This document shows positions 1 to 8,360 of a DNA stretch of 8,526 nt, piece after piece. Position numbers and translations under genes: made by a program. This DNA is from an uncultured Oscillospiraceae bacterium. GTDB lineage: Bacteria > Bacillota > Clostridia > Oscillospirales > Ruminococcaceae. Position 1 is the stretch's first letter. Each line of letters begins with the position of its first letter. The notes under the pieces are model-generated. The model ran no database searches and was not told the origin of the DNA. It saw only the letters and a program-made list of their open reading frames with translations. The stretch spans positions 1 to 8,526 of the forward strand of contig CAKSPU010000067.1 in assembly GCA_934486875.1 (NCBI GenBank), given 5' to 3'.

Positions 1-148
1 CATTGTCGATATCCGAAGCAATTTTTATCCGAATGTTCCACCCGCCGCCGATGTCAAGTCTGTAAAGCGGCTCAAGGACATCAAGCTTTTTTATCCTCCT
101 GTCGCCGCCCCCACCGCAGCCGAGGATATATCCTGCAATGAAGCTCAT
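1..148 (-). CDS. Tail-region protein, N-terminal fragment (runs off left edge)
   Basis: This open frame begins with ATG directly after the TAA stop of the hub gene (TAAATG) and has a strong ribosome site, AAGGAGG, 5 bases upstream. Only 49 codons are in the window, so the gene is cut by the edge and is not a pseudogene. The product starts MSFIAGYILGCGGGG, a short hydrophobic stretch followed by a glycine run. A basic patch (DRRIKK) and an apparently beta-rich segment with another glycine cluster (DIGGGWNIRI) come next. I do not recognise the family. Its place immediately after the baseplate hub suggests a tail tip, spike or fibre component, which is inference from position only. Confidence 0.6.
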   Translation of the reverse strand, partial: MSFIAGYILGCGGGGDRRIKKLDVLEPLYRLDIGGGWNIRIKIASDIDN

Positions 149-1444
149 TTAATCCTCCTTTACAAGCCTGATGTTTTTCTTCTCACCGTCTGATGATACA
201 TCATAGCTTAGCCTGTAAGCCGTATTTCCGTAAACAAATTCAGTCACCGTTTCGGAAAGCCTCCTGATGCTGTCGGGCATAACATTGTCCATCATCGCCC
301 CGTCGAACTGTGTTATCCTGTCGCCCACAGCAGAGAAAAAGGAGATGTCCGCTTTTCGCAGGTCTGTGCCGCTGTCATTTGTAAAGCCCACACCCTTGTC
401 GGTGATGACCGTGCTTCCGTATTTCCTGCCGCTCTCAATTTTTTTCAGAAGCTCATATCCCATAACATCGGTGTAATCCGATTCGTCCTCGCAGATGTCC
501 GCCGTCTCCGCCTGAGCATAAACGGAAGCCGCTCCGAAGCGTATGACCGTCTTAACGGAAATAAGCCCGTAAATATCCCCGAACACAAACTCCGTCAGAC
601 CGCAGGGGGCAAAGGAAATGTCAGCGTGACCGCAGTAAAATGACCGCCAGACCTTTTTTGCCGCCATTGACATAATATCGCCTGTCCTATCCTTGTCAAA
701 AAGCTTGCCCGACAGCTTAAGTGACTTTCTGAAATCCCCGCCGCTGCCTGCCGAAAACACCTCACCCGAAGCCGTGTTTTTGGCATATACCGCCGCAAAA
801 GGTCCTTTCTCCGAATGGATATACAGCGGAGCGCTCTCAGAAACATTCACCCCCACACTGCCCGATGCGGAAAACAGCGGAGTAAATCTCAGCTCCTCAT
901 CATCGGAGCAGTGCCACACCCCGACACCGTTTTCCGACAGCATATCCAGTATCTCTCTGCACTTTTTCCCGTGGATATCGCTGTAATAAAGCCTGTCCAC
1001 CGCAGGAAAGCTCAGATTGCAGGGCTTGAAGCCGCACTGGGAAGCAATATCCCCCAGCACCTGAGAAGTGACAAAGGGTTCCTTGTCCTCAGTGTAAAAG
1101 CTGTCCTTAAAATCATTTTCCGTCATTCTCATTCTGTCAAAAGCACGAATCGTAATAAGTCCGCCCTGCCTGCTGATGCTGCTTATAAAGTGGGGGCAGA
1201 ACTTCATATCCGATTTTCCCGAAACCCTGAGCTTTACCGCCGCATTGGGAGAAAAGCTGTCCGCCGTGGATATGGTCATAATAAGCTCCGAGCTTACAAT
1301 GCCCTTAACAGGCATATTTCCGTTTGATCTCGTGTTGTCGCTCTGCCTTATGAGCTTCATTGAAACAATGTCCCTGCCCCTTATGACCGTTCCCCCCACA
1401 GTCACCTCATAATCATTCAGGCTAAAGACAGTCCTCGGGAACAA
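149..1444 (-). CDS. Baseplate/tail hub-like protein (gp27/late-control-D type fold)
   Basis: Probably the hub at the tail tip, which links the tail tube to host-contact proteins and often carries the cell-wall-opening device. The protein is about 430 residues. The N-terminal third looks like a beta-barrel, with a strand-rich stretch ending in ITIRAFDRMRMTENDF. This is followed by a helical segment (VTSQVLGDIASQCGF) and by CREILDMLSENGVGVW then ELRFTPLF. That order (beta domain, small helical domain, 'break-up into fresh strand plus readout strand') is typical of gp27/XkdQ-like hubs. No peptidase or lysozyme motif is visible. The start is uncertain. The frame is open up to 1549 but would then overlap the upstream gene by 128 bases. 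A TTG at 1444 is used here; alternatives are CTG at 1420, just past the upstream TAG with GAGGA 11 bases before it, and GTG at 1405. Family assignment rests on pattern, not on a search. Confidence 0.6.
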   Translation of the reverse strand: MFPRTVFSLNDYEVTVGGTVIRGRDIVSMKLIRQSDNTRSNGNMPVKGIVSSELIMTISTADSFSPNAAVKLRVSGKSDMKFCPHFISSISRQGGLITIRAFDRMRMTENDFKDSFYTEDKEPFVTSQVLGDIASQCGFKPCNLSFPAVDRLYYSDIHGKKCREILDMLSENGVGVWHCSDDEELRFTPLFSASGSVGVNVSESAPLYIHSEKGPFAAVYAKNTASGEVFSAGSGGDFRKSLKLSGKLFDKDRTGDIMSMAAKKVWRSFYCGHADISFAPCGLTEFVFGDIYGLISVKTVIRFGAASVYAQAETADICEDESDYTDVMGYELLKKIESGRKYGSTVITDKGVGFTNDSGTDLRKADISFFSAVGDRITQFDGAMMDNVMPDSIRRLSETVTEFVYGNTAYRLSYDVSSDGEKKNIRLVKED

Positions 1445-1802
1445 AAGCGGCGTGGAGCTTGATTTCAGCTGTCCAGAACCTCTCTCCCCCGAAAACCCTG
1501 TCAAGTGAAAGACTGAGCTTTGCCCCCTTGAAAACCGCCTCCCTCTCATCGGGAGCGGAGTATGTCACCTTTATGCCGTCGCTGTCAAAAGCCTTTGACA
1601 GACCCTCGGCTGTACTGTCATCAACATCGGAAAGCACCGCCGAGACCGTGACACTGTGCCCCGTCCTCTTCTGTATCTTCTCCCCGTAAATGTTCACAAA
1701 GGAGCTTTCCCCGTCATACACAGGAGCCGTCTCCACACTGTATTTGTCCGATGTGATAAACCTGCTCACATCAATATCGCCTATTTTAAGATGAACCGCC
1801 AT
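1422..1802 (-). CDS. Small beta-rich tail protein, 126 aa
   Basis: The ATG at 1802 has GGGAG about 9 bases upstream and lies 14 bases after the preceding gene. The product begins MAVHLKIGDIDVSRFI and continues with alternating hydrophobic/polar strands (HSVTVSAVLSDVDD, FWTAEIKLHAAF), so it looks like a compact beta-sandwich. No signal peptide or membrane segment is visible. The opening 'KIGDIDVSRFI...SVETAPVYD' resembles the start of distal-tail or tail-adaptor proteins, but a classical distal tail protein is much longer. It lies directly before the hub, so an adaptor joining tube to hub is the best guess. Its 3' end probably overlaps or abuts the start of the hub gene (translational coupling). 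Function is inferred from position and strand pattern only. Confidence 0.6.
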   Translation of the reverse strand: MAVHLKIGDIDVSRFITSDKYSVETAPVYDGESSFVNIYGEKIQKRTGHSVTVSAVLSDVDDSTAEGLSKAFDSDGIKVTYSAPDEREAVFKGAKLSLSLDRVFGGERFWTAEIKLHAAFVPEDCL

Positions 1803-1816
1803 AAATTCTCACTCCC

Positions 1817-2242
1817 TCAGCATTCCGTAAAAACAGCCGTCACCGTTCGCCCGCAGGCCTCCGACGGCATATCGCCCGCCTGACTGATGAGCATCATTCC
1901 CTCAAAAGCAGACCTGCTTCCGTCCGAGTAAATACATCTTACAGGGATACCGTTTTCGGAGCACCGCATAATTTTCTCCTGTACACTGTCTCCCTTTATC
2001 CTCAGGAATTTCACCGTAATGCTGCCCCTTTTTGAAACAGGCACAGCCCTGTCCCCGTCAACATAGTCACGTATAACTACTCTCGGTGAAAAGTCAGCCG
2101 ATACCGAAAAAACGCCCTCCGTCACCGCCGTAAATGAATTTGTGTCCTCACCGCTTTCCGACATATCTATCCCCAGCACAAACCCCAGCTCATCATAAAA
2201 GCAGCCGTCATTCGGAGACTTCACAGCTTCCGTAACCGTCAT
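1817..2242 (-). CDS. Small tail protein, possible tube subunit, 141 aa
   Basis: The ATG at 2242 follows the previous gene's TGA by only 4 bases, and the ribosome site (GGGGGTGA) overlaps that stop, so the two are probably translationally coupled. The 141-residue product has a short acidic/polar N-terminus (SPNDGCFYDELGFVLG). A beta-rich core follows (GVFSVSADFSPRVVIRDYVD, GSITVKFLRIKGD) and the C-terminus ends in TVTAVFTEC. The size and all-beta appearance fit a small tail-tube-like or tail-adaptor protein. No recognisable enzyme motif is present. The tube role is an inference from its place between head-closure genes and the hub. It could equally be a second adaptor if this virus has a very short tail. 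Confidence 0.55.
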   Translation of the reverse strand: MTVTEAVKSPNDGCFYDELGFVLGIDMSESGEDTNSFTAVTEGVFSVSADFSPRVVIRDYVDGDRAVPVSKRGSITVKFLRIKGDSVQEKIMRCSENGIPVRCIYSDGSRSAFEGMMLISQAGDMPSEACGRTVTAVFTEC

Positions 2243-2246
2243 ACAC

Positions 2247-2594
2247 TCACCCCCTGTAAATTATCTCAATGCCCCTCTCCACCCTTGCAAAGCCGCTCTC
2301 AGCCGCCTCCGCAACAACAGCGGGATATGGGGAATTGACCTTTATAATGCCCTCGCCCGAGAACATCGTGAGCTTGACTGCCGCCCCGTCAGCCACTTCC
2401 GTAAGCGTCTTTTTTCCCTCAAAGCCCGAAGCGGATATCACCGCCTTAAGCCTTACGATACCGCCGCTGTAAGTCCTCACAAAGCAGTCGCCGTCTTTCG
2501 GGATAATGCTCACATTTCCCTCACCGTAAGCGCAGACCCCGGCAGCCCTGCAAAGTATCTCCATAAGTCCGTTGATGCTTTTTATCTCTTTCAG
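2247..2594 (-). CDS. Head-tail joining protein, possible tail terminator; likely CTG start
   Basis: The first ATG in frame (2564) has no ribosome site, but the frame stays open upstream to a CTG at 2594. That CTG overlaps the previous TGA stop (GTCTGA) and is preceded by GGGGAGGTGA at about 9 bases. Reading from it adds an N-terminal helix-like segment (KEIKSINGL) that runs smoothly into MEILCRAAGVCAYG. The protein is then 115 residues instead of 105. The remainder is beta-rich with a short C-terminal helix (VVAEAAESGFARVERGIEII). The position matches the third small gene of A118/streptococcal-phage joining modules, where a tail terminator/minor capsid protein is common. That assignment is inference. 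No homologue is recognised with confidence. Confidence 0.55.
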   Translation of the reverse strand: MKEIKSINGLMEILCRAAGVCAYGEGNVSIIPKDGDCFVRTYSGGIVRLKAVISASGFEGKKTLTEVADGAAVKLTMFSGEGIIKVNSPYPAVVAEAAESGFARVERGIEIIYRG

Positions 2595-2944
2595 ACCCTT
2601 TCACCTCCCCTCAGTTCAAGCTCGATTATCCTCAGCCTGCCGCCGCCGTAATGATACCTGAGCTCCGTCACCCGAAATTCCTCATTCCCGATAATTACCG
2701 AGCAGCCGCCTCCCGCCGAAAACATCACATCATCGGGAACGCTCCTGCCGCAGTCATAGAATAACCGCCCCTTTGAAATAAGCTTCTCACCGTTTTTGTC
2801 GCATTCCTTCTGACGGTAAAGCTCCGTGTGTATGTGCCTGAGACGCACCTCGGAAAGGACTTCCCGTTCTCCGAAAATGTCCGCCTCACCATAGCTTCTG
2901 AGAACACATTCCCCGTCAAGGAGACTGTATGGCAGATGCTTCAT
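2591..2944 (-). CDS. Putative minor capsid / head-closure protein, 117 aa
   Basis: The ATG at 2944 overlaps the upstream TAA (TAAATG) and has GGAGGGG 5 to 6 bases upstream. The sequence carries the pattern I associate with the small 'minor capsid protein' (Minor_capsid_1-like) family of Firmicutes phages. There is a strand with HIHTELYRQK, then SKGRLFYDCGRSVP, then a glycine-bearing loop, then IGNEEFRVTELRYHY and a final strand RLRIIELEL. Such proteins act as the stopper or adaptor closing the portal after packaging. The length (117) fits the family. The neighbours on both sides are also small joining proteins. The family call is from memory of the motif and has not been checked by alignment. 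Confidence 0.65.
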   Translation of the reverse strand: MKHLPYSLLDGECVLRSYGEADIFGEREVLSEVRLRHIHTELYRQKECDKNGEKLISKGRLFYDCGRSVPDDVMFSAGGGCSVIIGNEEFRVTELRYHYGGGRLRIIELELRGGERV

Positions 2945-3277
2945 TTACACCCCTCCGTTTCTCACCGTCACCCCTCTGAACAAAAGCCCCGCTTTTTCAA
3001 GTATAGCCGCCGCTCTCGGGCAAATGATACCTCTTTTCTCATAGCTTGCCGTCATATCGCCGAGCCTGACCGAAGAAAATCCCTCGTTTTCCTCCATAAA
3101 TTCCCCCTGAGCGCATACCGCCCTGAAAAATTCCGTCTCATCATTATCCGAAAGTCCGCAGTCCGTGATATATCCGCCCAGAATATCCGCCCCCCTGCGG
3201 ATAAATGGCATAATGACCTCTTCCTCCTCCGAGCCGCCGAAAACCTCCCTGTAAAATTCGTGATCGGGATAATTCAT
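2945..3277 (-). CDS. Head-tail connector (gp6/gp15-like adaptor), 110 aa
   Basis: The ATG at 3277 has an excellent ribosome site, GGGGAGGTGATG, and follows the capsid gene by 36 bases. The product is mainly helical: MNYPDHEFYREVFGG, then an acidic run (SEEEEV), then RRGADILGGYIT and ETEFFRAVCAQGEFME. The C-terminal part is ICPRAAAILEKAGLLFRGV. The layout of helices with a middle 'VCAQGEFM' and a C-terminal 'AAAILEKAGLLFRG' is typical of adaptor proteins that dock as a ring on the portal (HK97 gp6, SPP1 gp15). It sits directly after the major capsid gene, the usual place for this adaptor. I am fairly confident of the role and less so of the exact family. Confidence 0.7.
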   Translation of the reverse strand: MNYPDHEFYREVFGGSEEEEVIMPFIRRGADILGGYITDCGLSDNDETEFFRAVCAQGEFMEENEGFSSVRLGDMTASYEKRGIICPRAAAILEKAGLLFRGVTVRNGGV

Positions 3278-3313: not shown

Positions 3314-4183
3314 TTACTCAGCCGCAGTGTGGCAGTAAATGCCCGCAGCCTTGTTGGGATAAACCGCACAGATGCCGTAGCTTCTGTAGCCGTACTTCCA
3401 GCTGTCCGCATCGGGATTGTTTGCGGGATTTATGATCTTGGGCAGAGCGTGCTTGGTAAACTGGATAACAGCAGGCTTGTGAACTATCATAAAGTTGATG
3501 TTCTTAGCATCGACCGCCTTTGAATAGCCGCCGCTCTCCTCGCCGCCCGTAACACCGTCAGCCAACTTCACAGCGGAGTAAAATCTTGACTGAGGAACAA
3601 CCACTACCTCAGCGAAGGAAGCCATAACAGCCCTTGATTTTGTTGTGTCCATATCGTCGATCATACCCTTCAGCACAGGAGTGATAAAGAGCACTCTGTC
3701 CTCGGAGGGCACCTCCGCAGCGTCCATAGCGGAAACAGCCTTTCTTATCGCAGCCGCAGCCGCCTCGCCTGTTTCGAGCTTGCCCTCAGCCTTTGAAATG
3801 CCGTCAGTGCCCGCAATAGCTGCAAATCTGAAAGCATCAAGCTCGGGAACAGCCTTGGTTCTCACAAATTCCCCCGCAAGAGCGCCGAAAGCGATGCTCT
3901 GGCTCTCCTCGTTGTCCATAGCGTCCACCGAGAACATTCTGCCTCTCTCGTAGGAAAACCTCACAGTCTCCCAGGTAAGGCTCACATCGCCGCTCACATA
4001 GCCGCTGTTTCTTGAATAATTTGCAAGACCGTCCATAGTGAGCTTGGGGATAACGAGCTCATTTGCGTTAGCCCCCTCTCTTGCAAGTGCAGGGTCAGAC
4101 TCCAGCACAGCAGTCTTGGCATTTTCTCTGTAGGTCTCATCAAGGAGAGCTGCGTACTTCTTAGCAAGTGTAATAACGTTCAT
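3314..4183 (-). CDS. Major capsid protein, 289 aa
   Basis: Forms the icosahedral shell, presumably with the HK97 fold. The ATG at 4183 has GGAGGATC 8 to 9 bases upstream. At 289 residues it is in the normal range for capsid proteins without an N-terminal delta domain, which agrees with a separate scaffold gene just upstream. Visible features are an N-terminal helix (LAKKYAALLDETYREN) and a strand-rich arm (NELVIPKLTMDGLANYSR). The spine-helix region follows (NEESQSIAFGALAGEFVRTK, VPELDAFRFAAIAG), with an alanine-rich helix (GEAAAAAIRKAVSAMDAAEV) next. Then comes LFITPVLKGMIDD, typical of 'capsid domain' phage proteins, and a C-terminal WKYGYRSYGICAVYPNKAAGIY. The 64-base gap upstream, longer than others in the operon, may allow extra regulation, but no promoter is obvious there. 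Confidence 0.9.
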   Translation of the reverse strand: MNVITLAKKYAALLDETYRENAKTAVLESDPALAREGANANELVIPKLTMDGLANYSRNSGYVSGDVSLTWETVRFSYERGRMFSVDAMDNEESQSIAFGALAGEFVRTKAVPELDAFRFAAIAGTDGISKAEGKLETGEAAAAAIRKAVSAMDAAEVPSEDRVLFITPVLKGMIDDMDTTKSRAVMASFAEVVVVPQSRFYSAVKLADGVTGGEESGGYSKAVDAKNINFMIVHKPAVIQFTKHALPKIINPANNPDADSWKYGYRSYGICAVYPNKAAGIYCHTAAE

Positions 4184-4247: not shown

Positions 4248-4643
4248 TCAGCCCTTAAGTCCGAAAGCACGTCTCAGAGCAGAGCCGTCATCGGTAAGCC
4301 TGCCGCCCTTGACACCCGTGGTCATACCTCTGCCCCCCGCAGAGATACGTGCATAAGCCGCCCTTGCCGCCTCTTCAAGATCCACGCCGTTCTTTTCGGC
4401 GTAAAATCTTCCGAGACAAATGATATCCTCCGTCATAGCCGCAGGAACGCCTATCTCAGCGCATATGCATTTGGCTTTCAGATATTCATTCTCGCTCCTT
4501 GCCGCCGCAAGAGCATTTTCAAGCTCCTCCTCACGGGAAATATCCGCCTCTCCGCCGTCCTCATCGGGAGCGGCGACAACTTCATTTTCGGGAGCATTTT
4601 CTTCCTCGGAAGAAAGCTCCTCCGTCATAATTTCCTCGTTCAT
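4248..4643 (-). CDS. Capsid scaffolding protein, 131 aa
   Basis: Transient internal scaffold for procapsid assembly, expected to interact with the capsid protein encoded next. The ATG overlaps the portal's TGA by four bases (ATGA), with AAAGGGG about 9 bases upstream. The first 35 or so residues are very acidic (EELSSEEENAPENE). A predicted coiled coil follows (REEELENALAAARSENEYLKAK), then helical segments (FYAEKNGVDLEEAARAAYAR). A glycine-rich linker leads to a basic C-terminus (RLTDDGSALRRAFGLKG), which is the usual capsid-binding end of a scaffold. It is shorter than typical GP20-type scaffolds (often 180 to 220 residues), but order and composition are characteristic. No protease motif is seen. 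Confidence 0.8.
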   Translation of the reverse strand: MNEEIMTEELSSEEENAPENEVVAAPDEDGGEADISREEELENALAAARSENEYLKAKCICAEIGVPAAMTEDIICLGRFYAEKNGVDLEEAARAAYARISAGGRGMTTGVKGGRLTDDGSALRRAFGLKG

Positions 4644-6043
4644 TTTGCAATACCCCTTTCCTTTTCGATTTTTTCAAGCTCCTTTAAAGCGTCCTCCTCG
4701 GAGCATTCAAGAGCCGCCATAACAGCCGAAACACGGCTTATAAGACCCGCCTCCACAAGCCTTATGTTCCTGTCTATCACCTCGCTTTTGTCCACCGTCT
4801 GCCTGTCCGAGAAGCTTACCCTCACATTCACCTCCCCCGAAGGAAGCTCCCCGCACATCTGACCGCAGCGGATAATGCATCTCACAGTGCTTTCAAGAAG
4901 CTCCGCCGCAAGACATCGGTTGTTCTGCATCGTAATTTCCGTCCTCGTCTCCATACTCTTGACTTCCGCCGCCGTGCGTATGCCGCCGGAGCTGTTGAAA
5001 GCAAGAGTGCCCGAAGAGAGACCGCACTGGAAGCAGAGAATGTCAAGCAGAGCATTGATAGCGTCAACGTGCTCCGAAACACGAAGCTCGCAGGTGTTGT
5101 CAGTGATCTTAAGGTCACTGTCCTCATCGCATTTGAGCGCCTGATACACCTCATCGTCAGCGTCAAAATATCTGCTTATCCTGCCCGTGTCAGGGTCGAC
5201 CACCGTCCGAATGCAGGAGCTCGGCACGATTATCCTCTTGCGGCCCAGCACAAATTCACGTGAAAAGCTGTCAAAAGCAATGTCCAGCGCCTTAAGGGTG
5301 TCCGTGCAGTTTGCAAAGCAGCTGAGTCCAAGGAGGGACCCCTCCGAAAGATTGTTGTCCCCCGCAGGACGAAAGTACGCAAACATCGGCACGTCCATTT
5401 CGGGAAATTCGTCACTTTCCGAAAGCCCCTCAAAGACCTCCTCCACAGGCACCTCCAATGACATCGCCCCGTTTCCGATCTCATAAAGCTTTCTGTCGAT
5501 AACAACGTGTCCGTCACTGATGCCGTGGCGCTCAAACAGGATAAATTCCCTGCCCCCACGTAAAAATCTGCTTCCGAAAATGCCCTCGGAAATGCCTCCT
5601 CTGCCGCTGCCCGTGGGAATGAAATCTTCGGCGGAAATATAGTCGATGCAGACCCTGCCGCCGTCAATGTAGATTTTCAGCGCACCGCCGCCCAGCGCAT
5701 AAGCTCTTGAAAAGAAAGAGGGAGCCTTTTCCCAGAATCCGTTTTCCTGTAGGATCTTCATAGCAAAATCCTGCTGCGCCCTGTTATCGCAGAAAATATC
5801 CGCCTGACTTGAAAAGGTGAGCGCCGCCAGACTGTCGCAAAGCACCTTTGCGCACCCAAGCTGAGCCATACGCCTCTCACCCTTGCCGTAAAGCCCCGAC
5901 CTCTTCACATATGCCCAGGGCGGCTCACCCCTGTAAATACTGCCGCAGACCGATATCACATTTCTGTAAAAATCCTCTTCTGTCGGAATTTTCATCTGCG
6001 GGAAAGCCTTAGCCGCCCCGAAAATGATATTGCCCAATTTCAT
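4640..6043 (-). CDS. Portal protein, A118/SPP1 gp6 family, about 467 aa
   Basis: Forms the dodecameric channel at one capsid vertex through which the terminase pumps DNA. The length and several blocks fit the A118-type portal family. The N-terminal region is MKIPTEEDFYRNVISVCGSI, and the wing contains DYISAEDFIPTG. The block MFAYFRPAGDNNLSEGSLLG is followed by DTLKALDIAFDSFSREFVLG and RKRIIVP. The C-terminal crown-like helices include GLSSGTLAF, then TAAEVKSMETRTEITMQN. The start is ambiguous. GTG 6046 and ATG 6043 are almost inside the ribosome site (AAAGGAG, only 0 to 3 bases away), while TTG at 6037 has ideal spacing of about 8. The difference is at most three residues. It follows the large terminase by a few bases. 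No SPP1 gp7-type minor head gene follows; the scaffold comes next. Confidence 0.9.
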   Translation of the reverse strand: MKLGNIIFGAAKAFPQMKIPTEEDFYRNVISVCGSIYRGEPPWAYVKRSGLYGKGERRMAQLGCAKVLCDSLAALTFSSQADIFCDNRAQQDFAMKILQENGFWEKAPSFFSRAYALGGGALKIYIDGGRVCIDYISAEDFIPTGSGRGGISEGIFGSRFLRGGREFILFERHGISDGHVVIDRKLYEIGNGAMSLEVPVEEVFEGLSESDEFPEMDVPMFAYFRPAGDNNLSEGSLLGLSCFANCTDTLKALDIAFDSFSREFVLGRKRIIVPSSCIRTVVDPDTGRISRYFDADDEVYQALKCDEDSDLKITDNTCELRVSEHVDAINALLDILCFQCGLSSGTLAFNSSGGIRTAAEVKSMETRTEITMQNNRCLAAELLESTVRCIIRCGQMCGELPSGEVNVRVSFSDRQTVDKSEVIDRNIRLVEAGLISRVSAVMAALECSEEDALKELEKIEKERGIAK

Positions 6044-6056
6044 CACTCCTTTCAGA

Positions 6057-7313
6057 TCATTTCTGAGCCCCGAGAATATCGTTCATTCTCCTCTCCGTGG
6101 AATATTCCTGTGCATCGAGACTGTCCACATTCACCGACCCGTCATCAAGCCGCCTGTCCGTGCCGCCCTGCTCCCATACCGCCTCGGAGAAAGCCTTAAT
6201 GGTGTTGACGCACCTTGCGGCAATTTTGTACTGACCGCAGCTCATCATAGATGTGTAAAATCTGATACGCTGCCCGATGTCCCCCTTTCTCGCATTGTGT
6301 ATCTCCACAGGCAGACGTTCACGCCTTGCCGCATTCTGGAGCCCCCTTATAAGCACCTGCTCCGCACTGTCGCAGTAAACGTCCCTCAGACAGGGATAGC
6401 TTTTCAGGCATTTTCTTATAAACCTCACAAAATCCCTCTCCAGCTCAGCAGGGGAGACAATGCCCTTTTTGTAATACTCGTCAAGCGTGATTATCCTTTT
6501 GTACCCTGCCGTGTACCCCGTCAGATTGAAAGCCGTAGCCGAGCCGTTCCCGCCGAAGTCCACCCCCACATCAGCCATAATGATGTTATGTGGATCTGTT
6601 CTTTTGAGAATAAAGTCACCTGCCGAATCCGCAAAGTCTCTGTAAATGACCCCCTCAGCGCTTATCCACTTTCCGAGGATAAACCTGTCATAATAAACAC
6701 TTCCCGCATAATTCATTTTCAGCATCCGAACAAAAGACGGTCTCAGCGTTGGATTATCGTCAATGGTGAAATGTGAAGCCCTCACCGACCCGTTTTTCAC
6801 CCCCTCGTCAATGAATCTTTTCAGCCAGTGATTTGGCGACGCAGGATTGCAGCTCCCGTCAAAAATGGAGTTGGGTCTGTCAAGCCTTGACATTATCATC
6901 TTAAAAACGTCCTCATTCCAGGTCGTCATCTCATCACCGTAGCAGTATGAAAGGCTCAGTCCCTGCATCTTGTCCGCACAGCCGCTGCGGTACGCCCCGA
7001 AAATGAAGCATTCCCTGCCGAAAAGCCTTACCGTGCCGCCGCTTTTTACCCTGCCGACCAGCTTTTCCCCGAACATCTGCCGCATAGGGTCGATAATGTT
7101 TCTCGCCACACTTCCCTCGGTGTTTCCCACCAGCGCCACAGCCCCCTTGCCGTCAGCCGCCAGTATCCTGTTGGGAATGCGGTAATAATCGAGATAGGTC
7201 TTTCCCGACCTCACCGCCCCCACCGAAATGTTCCACCTTTTCGGCTCGTGAGTGGATATCCGCATAATTTCCGTCTGCTTAGGAGTCAGAAACAATTCCT
7301 TCACCGAACACAT
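6057..7313 (-). CDS. terL: Terminase large subunit (packaging ATPase/nuclease), 418 aa
   Basis: The motor that translocates DNA through the portal and cuts the concatemer. Residues are counted from the ATG at 7313. The Walker A motif is GAVRSGKT (32-39), and Walker B is YCYGDE with D127-E128, followed by M-T-T-W (coupling region). SCNPASPNHW (154-163) fits the sensor/linker part. The C-terminal RNase-H-like nuclease shows DVGVDFG (D248, D252), VYCDSAE (D315), and DSLDAQEY with D397/D400. ARKGDIGQRI (341-350) is typical of the SPP1/A118 terminase group. The gene overlaps the small-subunit gene by 35 bases. GTG 7316 and TTG 7325 lie just upstream and GTG 7304 downstream. The ribosome site GAGGGGAG is very close to the ATG, so a start at GTG 7304 is also possible. 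All key catalytic residues appear intact. Confidence 0.93.
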   Translation of the reverse strand: MCSVKELFLTPKQTEIMRISTHEPKRWNISVGAVRSGKTYLDYYRIPNRILAADGKGAVALVGNTEGSVARNIIDPMRQMFGEKLVGRVKSGGTVRLFGRECFIFGAYRSGCADKMQGLSLSYCYGDEMTTWNEDVFKMIMSRLDRPNSIFDGSCNPASPNHWLKRFIDEGVKNGSVRASHFTIDDNPTLRPSFVRMLKMNYAGSVYYDRFILGKWISAEGVIYRDFADSAGDFILKRTDPHNIIMADVGVDFGGNGSATAFNLTGYTAGYKRIITLDEYYKKGIVSPAELERDFVRFIRKCLKSYPCLRDVYCDSAEQVLIRGLQNAARRERLPVEIHNARKGDIGQRIRFYTSMMSCGQYKIAARCVNTIKAFSEAVWEQGGTDRRLDDGSVNVDSLDAQEYSTERRMNDILGAQK

Positions 7314-7629
7314 CACTCCCCTCAAATAAGCTTCTCAGCTCCGCAATAGCCGACTTTTCGTCCTCGTCCTCACCGCCGTAAATGCCGCATACCCGCCCTA
7401 AGATCTCCAGCGCCCTCAGCTTGTCGTAAAGCTTTATCTCTATCCCTTTCGTGCCGGCTTTCACCGAGCAAAGCGCCTTTCTGCTGTCAGCGGATAATTT
7501 TGCCGTGTCTGTGAGAATAATGACCTGTTCACCCTTTTCGTCCAAAGCTACCTTGGCAAATTTGGAAAAATCGGAAAACGCAATAGCCGCCAGCTCATTC
7601 AGCACAGCTTTTTTTGTTATCTTCCTCAT
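7279..7629 (-). CDS. terS: Small-terminase-like protein lacking the usual N-terminal HTH, 116 aa
   Basis: Resembles the central and C-terminal parts of Terminase_2-type small subunits: ITKKAVLNELAAIAFSDFSK, a short beta segment (GEQVIILTD), SADSRKALCSVKAGTKGIEI, then KLYDKLRALEILGRVCGIYGG. In that family these parts form the oligomer ring and bind the large subunit, and the protein normally opens with a helix-turn-helix that recognises the packaging site. Here the frame opens directly at the post-HTH region. The ATG at 7629 has a good site (GAGGTGA), and a TGA lies in frame three codons upstream, so no hidden N-terminus exists in this frame. Its 3' end overlaps the large terminase by 35 bases. 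DNA recognition may lie elsewhere, perhaps in the zinc-ribbon protein just upstream, which is speculation. Confidence 0.75.
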   Translation of the reverse strand: MRKITKKAVLNELAAIAFSDFSKFAKVALDEKGEQVIILTDTAKLSADSRKALCSVKAGTKGIEIKLYDKLRALEILGRVCGIYGGEDEDEKSAIAELRSLFEGSDVFGEGIVSDS

Positions 7630-7640
7630 ACCCCGTCACC

Positions 7641-7838
7641 TCAGTATTCGTAATTGTCTCTGATGAAATCCCGAAACTCCCTGCCGTACTCTCTCAGGAA
7701 ATCGAAAAGCACACTTTCCGTCACCTCCGAGGAAATGGAATCAGCGAAGCAGTCAAGGCACATATCAAATCTCCCAACCTCTTCCGACAAAACCTCGTCC
7801 CCGCACACAGGGCATACACATTTTTCACGAATAACCAT
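7641..7838 (-). CDS. Small zinc-ribbon protein, 65 aa, first gene of the operon
   Basis: The ATG at 7838 is chosen because AGAGAGGAG lies 8 bases upstream. A GTG three codons earlier (7847) would sit inside that ribosome site. The N-terminal half holds two cysteine knuckles, CPVCG (C9, C12, with an extra C7) and CLDC (C27, C30), 14 residues apart, a classic zinc ribbon. The C-terminal half is an acidic/aromatic helix (ESVLFDFLREYGREF) ending FIRDNYEY. It is the first gene behind the late promoter, and its stop lies 11 bases before the small-terminase start. No enzymatic motif is seen. Possible roles are a DNA-binding partner of the terminase, a late regulator binding the nearby operator array, or an anti-host factor. 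None is shown by the sequence. Confidence 0.7.
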   Translation of the reverse strand: MVIREKCVCPVCGDEVLSEEVGRFDMCLDCFADSISSEVTESVLFDFLREYGREFRDFIRDNYEY

Positions 7839-7977
7839 TTCAAGCACTCCTCTCTAAAAACATATGTTCGATATAATGGGTTAAAAAAAATCTCCGTTCC
7901 AAAAATCCCAAGTCCCTTTGATAAAATTAAAACTTATGTTCTACTATGAAGCAGCAAAAATCCCATACAGCAGTAAT

Positions 7978-8023
7978 ATTATCGGAACATCTCGTCCAAA
8001 GAGCCTGCATTTTCGGAACATCT
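7978..8023 (+). repeat. Direct repeat of 15 bases, period 31
   Basis: ATTATCGGAACATCT (7978-7992) and ATTTTCGGAACATCT (8009-8023) differ at one base and are 31 bases apart. They form the central, plus-oriented part of the operator array in the leader of the late transcript. The second copy extends into a full GAAC-N4-GTTT dyad. The first copy degenerates after GAACATCT. Confidence 0.7.
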
Positions 8024-8038
8024 GTTTGATGTGTTTAT

Positions 8039-8067
8039 ATAATAGCACATCCGTTCCCAAAAGTCAA
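8039..8067 (-). promoter_or_regulatory. Probable late-operon promoter (sigma-A, extended -10)
   Basis: On the minus strand, TTGACT (8067-8062) and TATTAT (8044-8039) are separated by exactly 17 bases. The -10 is preceded by TGC, giving an extended -10 element (TGCTATTAT). Transcription should start near 8032, leaving a leader of about 195 bases before the zinc-ribbon gene. No other strong promoter precedes the structural genes. A GAAC-type half-dyad lies in the spacer (8044-8055) and a full dyad (8016-8027) lies just downstream of the start, so this promoter is well placed to be blocked by whatever binds those sites. A much weaker alternative (TTGGAA, 18 bases, CATTAT; about 7905-7876) lies nearer the first gene. 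Confidence 0.75.
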
Positions 8068-8140
8068 GCCTTTTTTGCAAATTTATAAAAACTTTGTTCT
8101 ATTACACAAAAACATATGTTCTAATTTGCGCAAAATTAAT

Positions 8141-8171
8141 AAAAAATGCCCTACGTAGATCACGTAAGGCA
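8141..8171 (-). terminator. Rho-independent terminator insulating the late promoter
   Basis: On the minus strand a 10-pair stem (TGCCTTACGT with ACGTAGGGCA, one G-U pair) encloses a 5-base loop and is followed directly by six T residues. On the plus strand the stem has a C-A mismatch and no T run, so the terminator is directional. It would stop transcription coming leftward from the promoter at 8421-8393 before it reaches the late promoter. Confidence 0.8.
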
Positions 8172-8187
8172 AAAAATCATACAACAT

Positions 8188-8216
8188 TTGACATAAAAAA
8201 CCAATTATGTTATAAT
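8188..8216 (+). promoter_or_regulatory. Perfect consensus promoter reading right
   Basis: TTGACA (8188-8193), a 17-base spacer and TATAAT (8211-8216) give a full match to the sigma-A consensus, with an A-rich spacer. The start should be at about 8222-8224. No protein gene with a ribosome site follows, so it most likely drives the structured RNA at 8223-8360. Confidence 0.85.
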
Positions 8217-8222
8217 AACAAC

Positions 8223-8360
8223 GGCGAGTGTAGTAGCATACTACATATGCAAATGGCTTGACGGCGATAAGTAAGACAGCAGCAAGCCTGAAGGTCAGCC
8301 GCCTTTTTAAATAATGGTCAGAGCCCCTGAGAAATGGCAGTTTCTCAGGGGCTCATTTTG
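8223..8360 (+). ncRNA. Putative structured small RNA of about 140 nt
   Basis: It begins at a perfect promoter and ends at a 14-pair terminator-like hairpin, with no convincing reading frame inside (ATGs give 2 to 4 codons). Visible structure: a 7-pair hairpin with a 3-base loop (8229-8235 with 8239-8245); GGCTTG (8255-8260) with CAAGCC (8283-8288); and a possible closing stem GGCG (8223-8226) with CGCC (8300-8303), followed by five T residues (8304-8308). GGCTTGAC (8255-8262) can instead pair with GTCAGCC (8294-8300) with one bulge, so two mutually exclusive folds exist. I recognise no known RNA family (not tRNA, tmRNA, 6S-like, or any riboswitch I can recall). It could be a regulatory RNA paired with the antisense transcript, or an attenuated leader. 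Confidence 0.6.
8321..8360 (+). terminator. Strong hairpin, likely terminator of the small RNA
   Basis: A perfect 14-pair stem, GAGCCCCTGAGAAA (8321-8334) with TTTCTCAGGGGCTC (8341-8354), encloses a 6-base loop. ATTTTG follows on the plus strand. The T run is short (4), but the stem is very stable. On the minus strand no T run follows, so it should not terminate leftward transcription efficiently. Confidence 0.75.

Follow-up and report, generated by a model that had tools for sequence, protein, structure and literature searches.

A dyad array at the promoter of a gene-transfer-agent-like cluster of gut Ruminococcaceae as the candidate operator of a dedicated repressor

The locus considered here raises the question of which regulator reads a dense array of inverted repeats located at the promoter of an operon of phage-type structural genes. 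The window, namely the whole analysed stretch of 8526 bases, comprises phage structural genes in series on the minus strand, and the repeats ahead of them share the core GAAC-N4-GTTT. The original prediction likened this core to the Firmicutes LexA box, and the likeness itself is genuine, as the core fits the GAAC-N4-GTTT/C boxes that LexA of Clostridioides difficile binds according to the available text of PMC4234289. It went on to propose direct control by host LexA, naming a phage-coded repressor of the same motif as the alternative. This alternative, taken as a dedicated repressor that reads its own box, fits best: with a probability of roughly 0.57, we read the array as the operator through which such a repressor would hold a domesticated, gene-transfer-agent-like (GTA-like) operon silent.

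All genes of the operon lie on the minus strand. The first of them (7641..7847, likely start ATG at 7838) encodes a 68-aa protein with cysteine pairs, which matches no Pfam or PHROG family and for which a single-sequence structure model is of low confidence (mean pLDDT 59). It is followed by genes for a small terminase subunit without its N-terminal part (7279..7629; Pfam Terminase_2, profile positions 60-138 of 141 only), the large terminase subunit (6057..7325; phrog_2, 7e-32) and the portal protein (4640..6046; phrog_533, 3e-101). A 131-aa protein encoded in the portal-capsid interval (4248..4643), a putative scaffold by position only, has no PHROG or Pfam family match, and its homologues occupy the equivalent place in relatives. 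Beyond it lie the genes for the major capsid protein (3314..4183; phrog_422, 1e-72), two head-tail adaptors (2945-3277 and 2591-2944, together spanning 2591..3277; phrog_541 and phrog_793) and four tail-region proteins (2247-2564, 1817-2242, 1422-1802 and 149-1549, together spanning 149..2564), the homologues of which keep the same order in relatives. The last of these four shows a weak match to phrog_6616 and the other three have no Pfam match. The start of the next cluster gene (MSFIAGY..., 1..148) is cut by the window end and has full-length homologues in relatives; no tape-measure gene was recognised in the cluster. The closest relatives of the large terminase are found in a MAG of an uncultured Ruminococcus (L001, 97%), an IMG/VR contig (L008, 94%) and an Oscillospiraceae MAG (L002, 82%), and homologues of the 68-aa protein are present in L001, L008 and L002/L234.

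The promoter and the dyads are located between 7848 and 8130. All the predicted boxes, four exact and four weaker within 264 bases, were recovered at their places. Listed from the upstream end on the minus strand, with slots numbered relative to the first -35 base, they are box A (8110..8121; GAACATATGTTT, exact, slot -54), box B (8088..8099; GAACAAAGTTTT, one mismatch, slot -32), box C (8045..8056; GAACGGATGTGC, one mismatch, inside the promoter spacer, slot +11), box D (8016..8027; AAACAGATGTTC, exact on the plus strand, slot +40, where the initial transcribed region is expected), the degenerate box 5 (7985..7996; GACGAGATGTTC, two mismatches), box 6 in the leader (7930..7941; GAACATAAGTTT, exact), box 7 (7888..7899; GAACGGAGATTT, one mismatch) and box 8 (7858..7869; GAACATATGTTT, exact), which immediately precedes the ribosome-binding site. 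The 303-base intergenic region contains four exact GAAC-N4-GTTT dyads and seven sites with at most one mismatch, where 5000 dinucleotide shuffles yield on average 0.015 exact dyads (0.012 for GTTY) and 0.36 sites of the looser kind. Neither count was matched by any of the 5000 shuffles, which bears out the predicted strong excess and rules out a chance origin. The gap length is likewise specific, with four sites at gap 4, one at gap 3 and none at the other gaps from 0 to 11. Across the whole window, one-mismatch dyads show no excess (15 versus 12.1 expected, with 15 reached in 51 of 200 shuffles), and hence the dyad signal is local. The start-to-start spacings of the array are 22, 43, 29, 31, 55, 42 and 30; the predicted placement near whole helical turns holds for boxes A, B and C, and only roughly for the remainder.

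The claimed strong extended -10 promoter was also confirmed on the minus strand: a -35 hexamer TTGACT (8062..8067, read 8067-8062) and a -10 hexamer TATTAT with a TG extension (8039..8044, read 8044-8039) are separated by a 17-base spacer and together match the consensus at 10 of 12 positions. Promoter-like sites as such are in no clear excess in the region (4 versus 2.7 expected), and a search of viral contigs with the core-promoter pattern matched only L008. A related consensus, GAAC/AAAC-N4-GTGYTATAAT, is common ahead of many host genes (pgk-, dnaA-, rnc- and ftsK-like, by eye); as box C overlaps it, this box alone is weak evidence for an operator and was dropped as a stand-alone one. On the whole, the view that an operator-like array is built into the promoter of these phage-type structural genes is supported.

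Two further elements were observed upstream of the array. An intrinsic terminator on the minus strand (8147-8171) lies directly upstream of it and might serve to insulate the operon. On the plus strand, the interval 8188-8354 of the window contains a promoter that matches the consensus perfectly (TTGACA-17-TATAAT), diverges from the array and has a strong terminator downstream at 8321-8354. The corresponding short plus-strand transcript (8188-8354) could be a small RNA or the remnant of a tiny gene; an Rfam scan returned no family at gathering level.

The geometry of the boxes bears on the mode of regulation. Box D would cover the transcription start and, taken together with the near-whole-turn placement of boxes A, B and C, this makes cooperative binding of a repressor the simplest reading. 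A dimeric helix-turn-helix protein could bind several dyads simultaneously, with the upstream and leader boxes aiding cooperative or looped binding. The boxes might instead belong to an activator resembling GafA or GafYZ, or to a late-gene activator, an account which we regard as unlikely though by no means negligible. GafYZ turns on the structural operon of the Caulobacter GTA, as stated in the available text of PMC9632790, and boxes A and B are situated upstream of the -35 hexamer, as would suit an activator. However, a -35 and extended -10 so near to consensus should need little help, and the position of box D over the expected start, with more boxes in the leader, points away from activation.

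Comparison of the promoters of relatives, which had been suggested as a check, covered 21 promoters: eight of clade A, to which the window belongs, including the three close relatives (the window, L001 and L008), and 13 others. Three genomes with no readable promoter (G014, G018 and G019) were left out, only the copy nearer the genes was counted in G010, which has two promoter copies, and the stretches of G137 and G212 were defined by distance from terL. Within clade A, GAAC dyads with at most one mismatch recur at fixed slots, those at -54, -32/-31 and +40 in all eight promoters and that at +11 in six of the eight. The pair formed by boxes A and B occurs only at the cluster promoter, in five of six clade-A genomes, and the unit formed by the -10 hexamer and box D likewise occurs only there, in all six, with 0 control matches for either. 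Conservation of the boxes thus stood within clade A and failed beyond it: the 13 other promoters have at most one GAAC dyad each, in three of four cases at the spacer position, and nine of them carry a different dyad, TTGC-N5-GCAA (at most one mismatch), which is found in none of the eight clade-A promoters.

The TTGC count was reached in 1 to 4 of 200 shuffles for G004, G012, G017, G020 and G137, and in 7, 13, 21 and 56 of 200 for G016, G212, G008 and G006, respectively. In four of the nine promoters these dyads are located near clade-A slots, namely in G004 (-32, +41), G012 (+12, +41), G017 (-54, +12) and G006 (+43), and in the remaining five (G016, G020, G008, G212 and G137) they are off those slots, for example at -13. 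G137 and G212 each contain two perfect TTGCATWATGCAA dyads, which lie +71/+72 and +159/+161 relative to the closest TTGACA candidate. No TTGC dyad was found at the promoters of G003, G005, G007 and G009; G005 has a third type, an TTTCACATNATGTGAAA (TTTCACATGATGTGAAA) dyad at +47, and none of the three dyad types is clearly present in G003, G007 and G009. All three types have in common CAT and ATG around the centre, and they presumably belong to one changing repressor family.

G020 has a second operon, flanked by groEL on one side and by a gene that looks amylase-like by eye on the other. It encodes an MSFIAGY protein, a fibre-like protein, a holin (PF05105) and an amidase (PF01510). An TTGCACAATGCAA dyad precedes the promoter of this separate operon, which ties that dyad to the genes of the agent. 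The pattern TTGCRYWRYGCAA was detected at 18 places in ten genomes, as against 4 for the control pattern; six of these are in the cluster control region, one precedes the second operon of G020, four are in or between cluster genes and seven lie elsewhere near unrelated genes. Fibre/lysis loci outside the cluster have matches in 11 of 22 genomes, and among the 18 such loci that were read, a TTGC dyad occurs only at G020:C5 and a single GAAC site at four, including G020:C5. G020 has several more copies of the fibre-like gene, on C57, C65, C67, C84 and C12, and a holin-like gene adjoins some of them.

These comparisons bear directly on the proposal that host LexA binds the array and that DNA damage turns the operon on, which we now consider decidedly improbable. 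Beyond the fit of the core to the C. difficile boxes, it might draw support from the statement, in the available text of PMC12946183, that GTAs are SOS-inducible too, and from the lexA-family model, by which a single protein, LexA itself, was retrieved from each of G010, G011 and G015 (further weak matches were obtained in several other genomes). The host promoters at which the motif had been expected do not carry it in the upstream regions examined. GAAC-N4-GTTY is missing just upstream of recA in all 18 genomes having this gene (about 220 bases, in one only 60) and just upstream of lexA in all eight genomes with lexA above the model cut-off. As lexA follows another gene, the possibility of a distant promoter was examined in G001 and G002, and no such box was found within 1.5 kb upstream. 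It is also missing upstream of uvrB in G015, the sole clade-A genome in which uvrB was found. In G001, which of the MAGs is closest to the window and, to judge by its missing recA, is incomplete, GAACRNRYGTTY occurs at two places, both of them in the cluster promoter. The LexA recognition helix, which we take to be STSTAxRYVN, is nearly identical in genomes with the array and in those without it (G016, G020 and G004), and the sister clades carry a different dyad. In contrast to the clostridial LexA boxes, the array is thus multi-copy and of fixed slots, is absent at the recA, lexA and uvrB regions examined, and is replaced by another dyad in sister clades. The claim of host SOS regulation was accordingly rejected: the array is probably no SOS box, and its resemblance to one, while real, is probably misleading here.

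The lexA gene adjoins an upstream murC-like gene (by eye) on the same strand in G001, G002, G010, G011 and G015, and at these five loci there is no GAAC box and no self-control site was recognised. The counts of GAACRNRYGTTY against those of its reversed pattern are 2 versus 87 in G001, 15 versus 102 in G002 and 11 versus 49 in G003; the reversed control differs in composition, and a depletion of GAACRNRYGTTY is hence unexplained rather than proven.

The binder of a dedicated operator was sought through sites of its own box in G002, G137, G020, G004 and G015, and this retrieved no convincing gene, the other sites being near unrelated genes; within clade A, no second GAAC-controlled target was found. 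A scan of 1.06 Mb of the approximately 2.3 Mb of G015 yielded 14 GAAC-N4-GTTY sites, of which four are noncoding and single, and one GAAC site of this genome is 113 bases ahead of a LysR-like gene (by eye).

The leader boxes have a discernible origin. The leader segment 7960 to 7848 can be aligned to the promoter module at a score of 58, as compared to a maximum of 44 in shuffles (0 of 2000), and the equivalent alignments in L008 and L001 were matched by 0 of 1000 shuffles each. Boxes 6, 7 and 8 are the counterparts of B, C and D, the copied -10 hexamer having decayed, and an intact tandem copy of the promoter module is present in G010. This alignment suggests that boxes 6-8 stem from a decayed tandem duplication of the promoter module, of which the second copy would have lost its -10 while keeping two boxes. 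Box 6 retains 12/12 bases in both L008 and L001, and box 8 retains 11/12 and 12/12, respectively. Together they keep 23/24 in L008 and 24/24 in L001, as against 93/120 and 74/120 for the leader outside boxes (the L001 figure includes a deletion), a preference that is suggestive only, given the small numbers. Box 7 keeps 8/12 bases in L008 and 9/12 in L001, and box 5 keeps 9/12 in L008 and is deleted in L001.

Such decay might be taken to mean that the whole cluster is a decaying prophage remnant and its array a relic with no present role, especially as in-frame stops occur in two of the 20 terL matches of the genus (G004 and G017). The structural genes are, however, under purifying selection, with dN/dS of 0.04-0.34 in the measured pairs; boxes 6 and 8 were kept while the surrounding leader changed, and the slots are fixed throughout clade A. 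Hence, we consider the relic interpretation very improbable.

A terminase match was found in 20 of 20 genomes of the genus of L001, at 55 to 97% identity, and the same gene order around terL is evident from the portal in 20/20 and the capsid in 18/20, the remaining two contigs ending there. In a family sample of 197 genomes, a terminase match of any kind was detected in 127 and one of at least 440 bits in ten. Of these, two (G137 and G212) share the gene order of the window cluster, G126, G022 and G131 have different genes after the portal and resemble ordinary prophages (by eye), and G155 and G041 show no portal downstream of the terminase match. This distribution indicates that the cluster belongs to the genus and its close neighbours. 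The nearest named relatives of the capsid are from Huintestinicola sp., and capsids of viral contigs reach up to 66% identity when the close relative L008 is excluded.

Protein distances of recA are correlated with those of terL (r = 0.843) and the portal (r = 0.839) across 18 genomes and with those of the capsid (r = 0.930) across 16, with none of 5000 permutations reaching these values in each case; G001 and G019, which are without recA, were left out. The recA and cluster trees are nearly congruent, with G004, G005 and G012 placed differently or unresolved at the deeper forks. The cluster is vertically inherited with its host.

The flanks of the cluster consist of host genes that vary by lineage, among them those for EF-Tu and GlgB, DnaJ, an AMP-binding enzyme, a PLP enzyme (PALP), YmdB, an epimerase and, in two genomes, a CorC-like protein. 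The scan of both flanks in G003, G005, G008 and G012 covered 37 of 40 proteins of at least 90 aa, three piece-end proteins being left out. Pfam searches of 34 of the 37 detected no integrase, replication or phage protein, and two more are ribosomal proteins. Matches to PHROGs comprised 21 families, of which 16 are unnamed and five are named as elongation factor, RelE-like toxin, kinase, epimerase and esterase, with no integrase, replication or structural family named. The description of the site as the late promoter of a phage is thus not upheld, given that the cluster is host-inherited and stands alone between host genes. That the array is the operator of an active temperate phage's own repressor is most improbable and was rejected, for although the gene order is phage-like and capsids of viral contigs reach the identity given above, the terL match spans the entire genus with divergence that tracks recA, the host flanks of four genomes are without a recognised integrase or replication gene, and the small terminase is truncated.

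This truncation is shared by all six cluster genomes considered, in which the match of the small terminase to Terminase_2 is confined to profile positions 58-138 of 141. Four phage-like relatives were compared: in three the small terminase covers most of the GP3_package profile, and in one it weakly matches HTH families. By these profile matches, the cluster version appears to be without the DNA-binding (N-terminal) half. Downstream, in the part before which the window stops, the operon of G015 extends to a holin and Amidase_2, and that of G016 has a holin. The cluster is predicted to be a GTA-like element making gene-transfer particles.

As described in the available text of PMC12946183, the FpGTA of Faecalibacterium has a short operon, a small terminase without an obvious DNA-binding domain and, in some strains, a separate fibre and lysis operon. 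Compared by description, the window cluster is alike in its host group (gut Oscillospiraceae/Ruminococcaceae), its compact terminase-portal-capsid operon and its truncated small terminase, and the separate fibre/lysis operon of some strains has a parallel in G020. The same text records 4.6-kb GTA-like packaging in Ruminococcus callidus and gives a gene cluster for Faecalibacterium only; the words "promoter" and "LexA" do not occur in the main text of that report (PMC12946183).

Under the repressor reading, release of the repressor would allow the terminase, portal, capsid and tail genes to be made, and the resulting particles would package host DNA. By analogy, the nearest tested example is RogA, a LexA-like repressor of the Caulobacter GTA which, according to the available text of PMC9632790, binds fragments with GGAA-N4-TTCC repeats. 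Both cases would involve a GTA held off through inverted repeats with a 4-base gap at the repressor target; RogA acts on the activator genes gafYZ (PMC9632790), whereas the array described here sits on the structural promoter itself and would be bound by a dedicated repressor. More tentatively, it is possible that a private repressor acquired a new code as the species diverged, the dyads at one conserved promoter changing together from an TTGCATWATGCAA-like form into GAAC-N4-GTTY with some slots and the CAT/ATG core kept. If so, each clade would lock its own gut-commensal gene-transfer agent with its own key.

PBSX of Bacillus subtilis consists of phage structural genes that a Gram-positive host has domesticated, and it packages host DNA; it is longer, has a long tail and is equipped with an Xre repressor of its own. 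The window cluster is alike in being a domesticated structural cluster of a Gram-positive host and unlike in that it has no recognised tape-measure gene. PBSX is also named in the available text of PMC12946183. The present cluster adds a GTA candidate from another genus, a defined control region and some 20 genomes among which the operator code differs. Two questions can thereby be put directly to the test: how the GTA of a Gram-positive host stays off, and why a domesticated element would change its repressor code.

Two minor observations concern the relatives. The contig end L001:1-60 is an adapter-like stretch, which we take to be a sequencing adapter, and the sequence left of it is not to be trusted. 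A second, distinct compact cluster was encountered in the family at L328, L329, L331 and L332 (in G064, G167, G055 and G060), with a large terminase of about 27% identity, followed by genes in the portal and scaffold places, and with flanks that are non-phage by eye. Its capsid in G060 is of the PF25209 type, with named relatives from Ruminococcus sp., and this cluster may represent the GTA type of other Ruminococcus.
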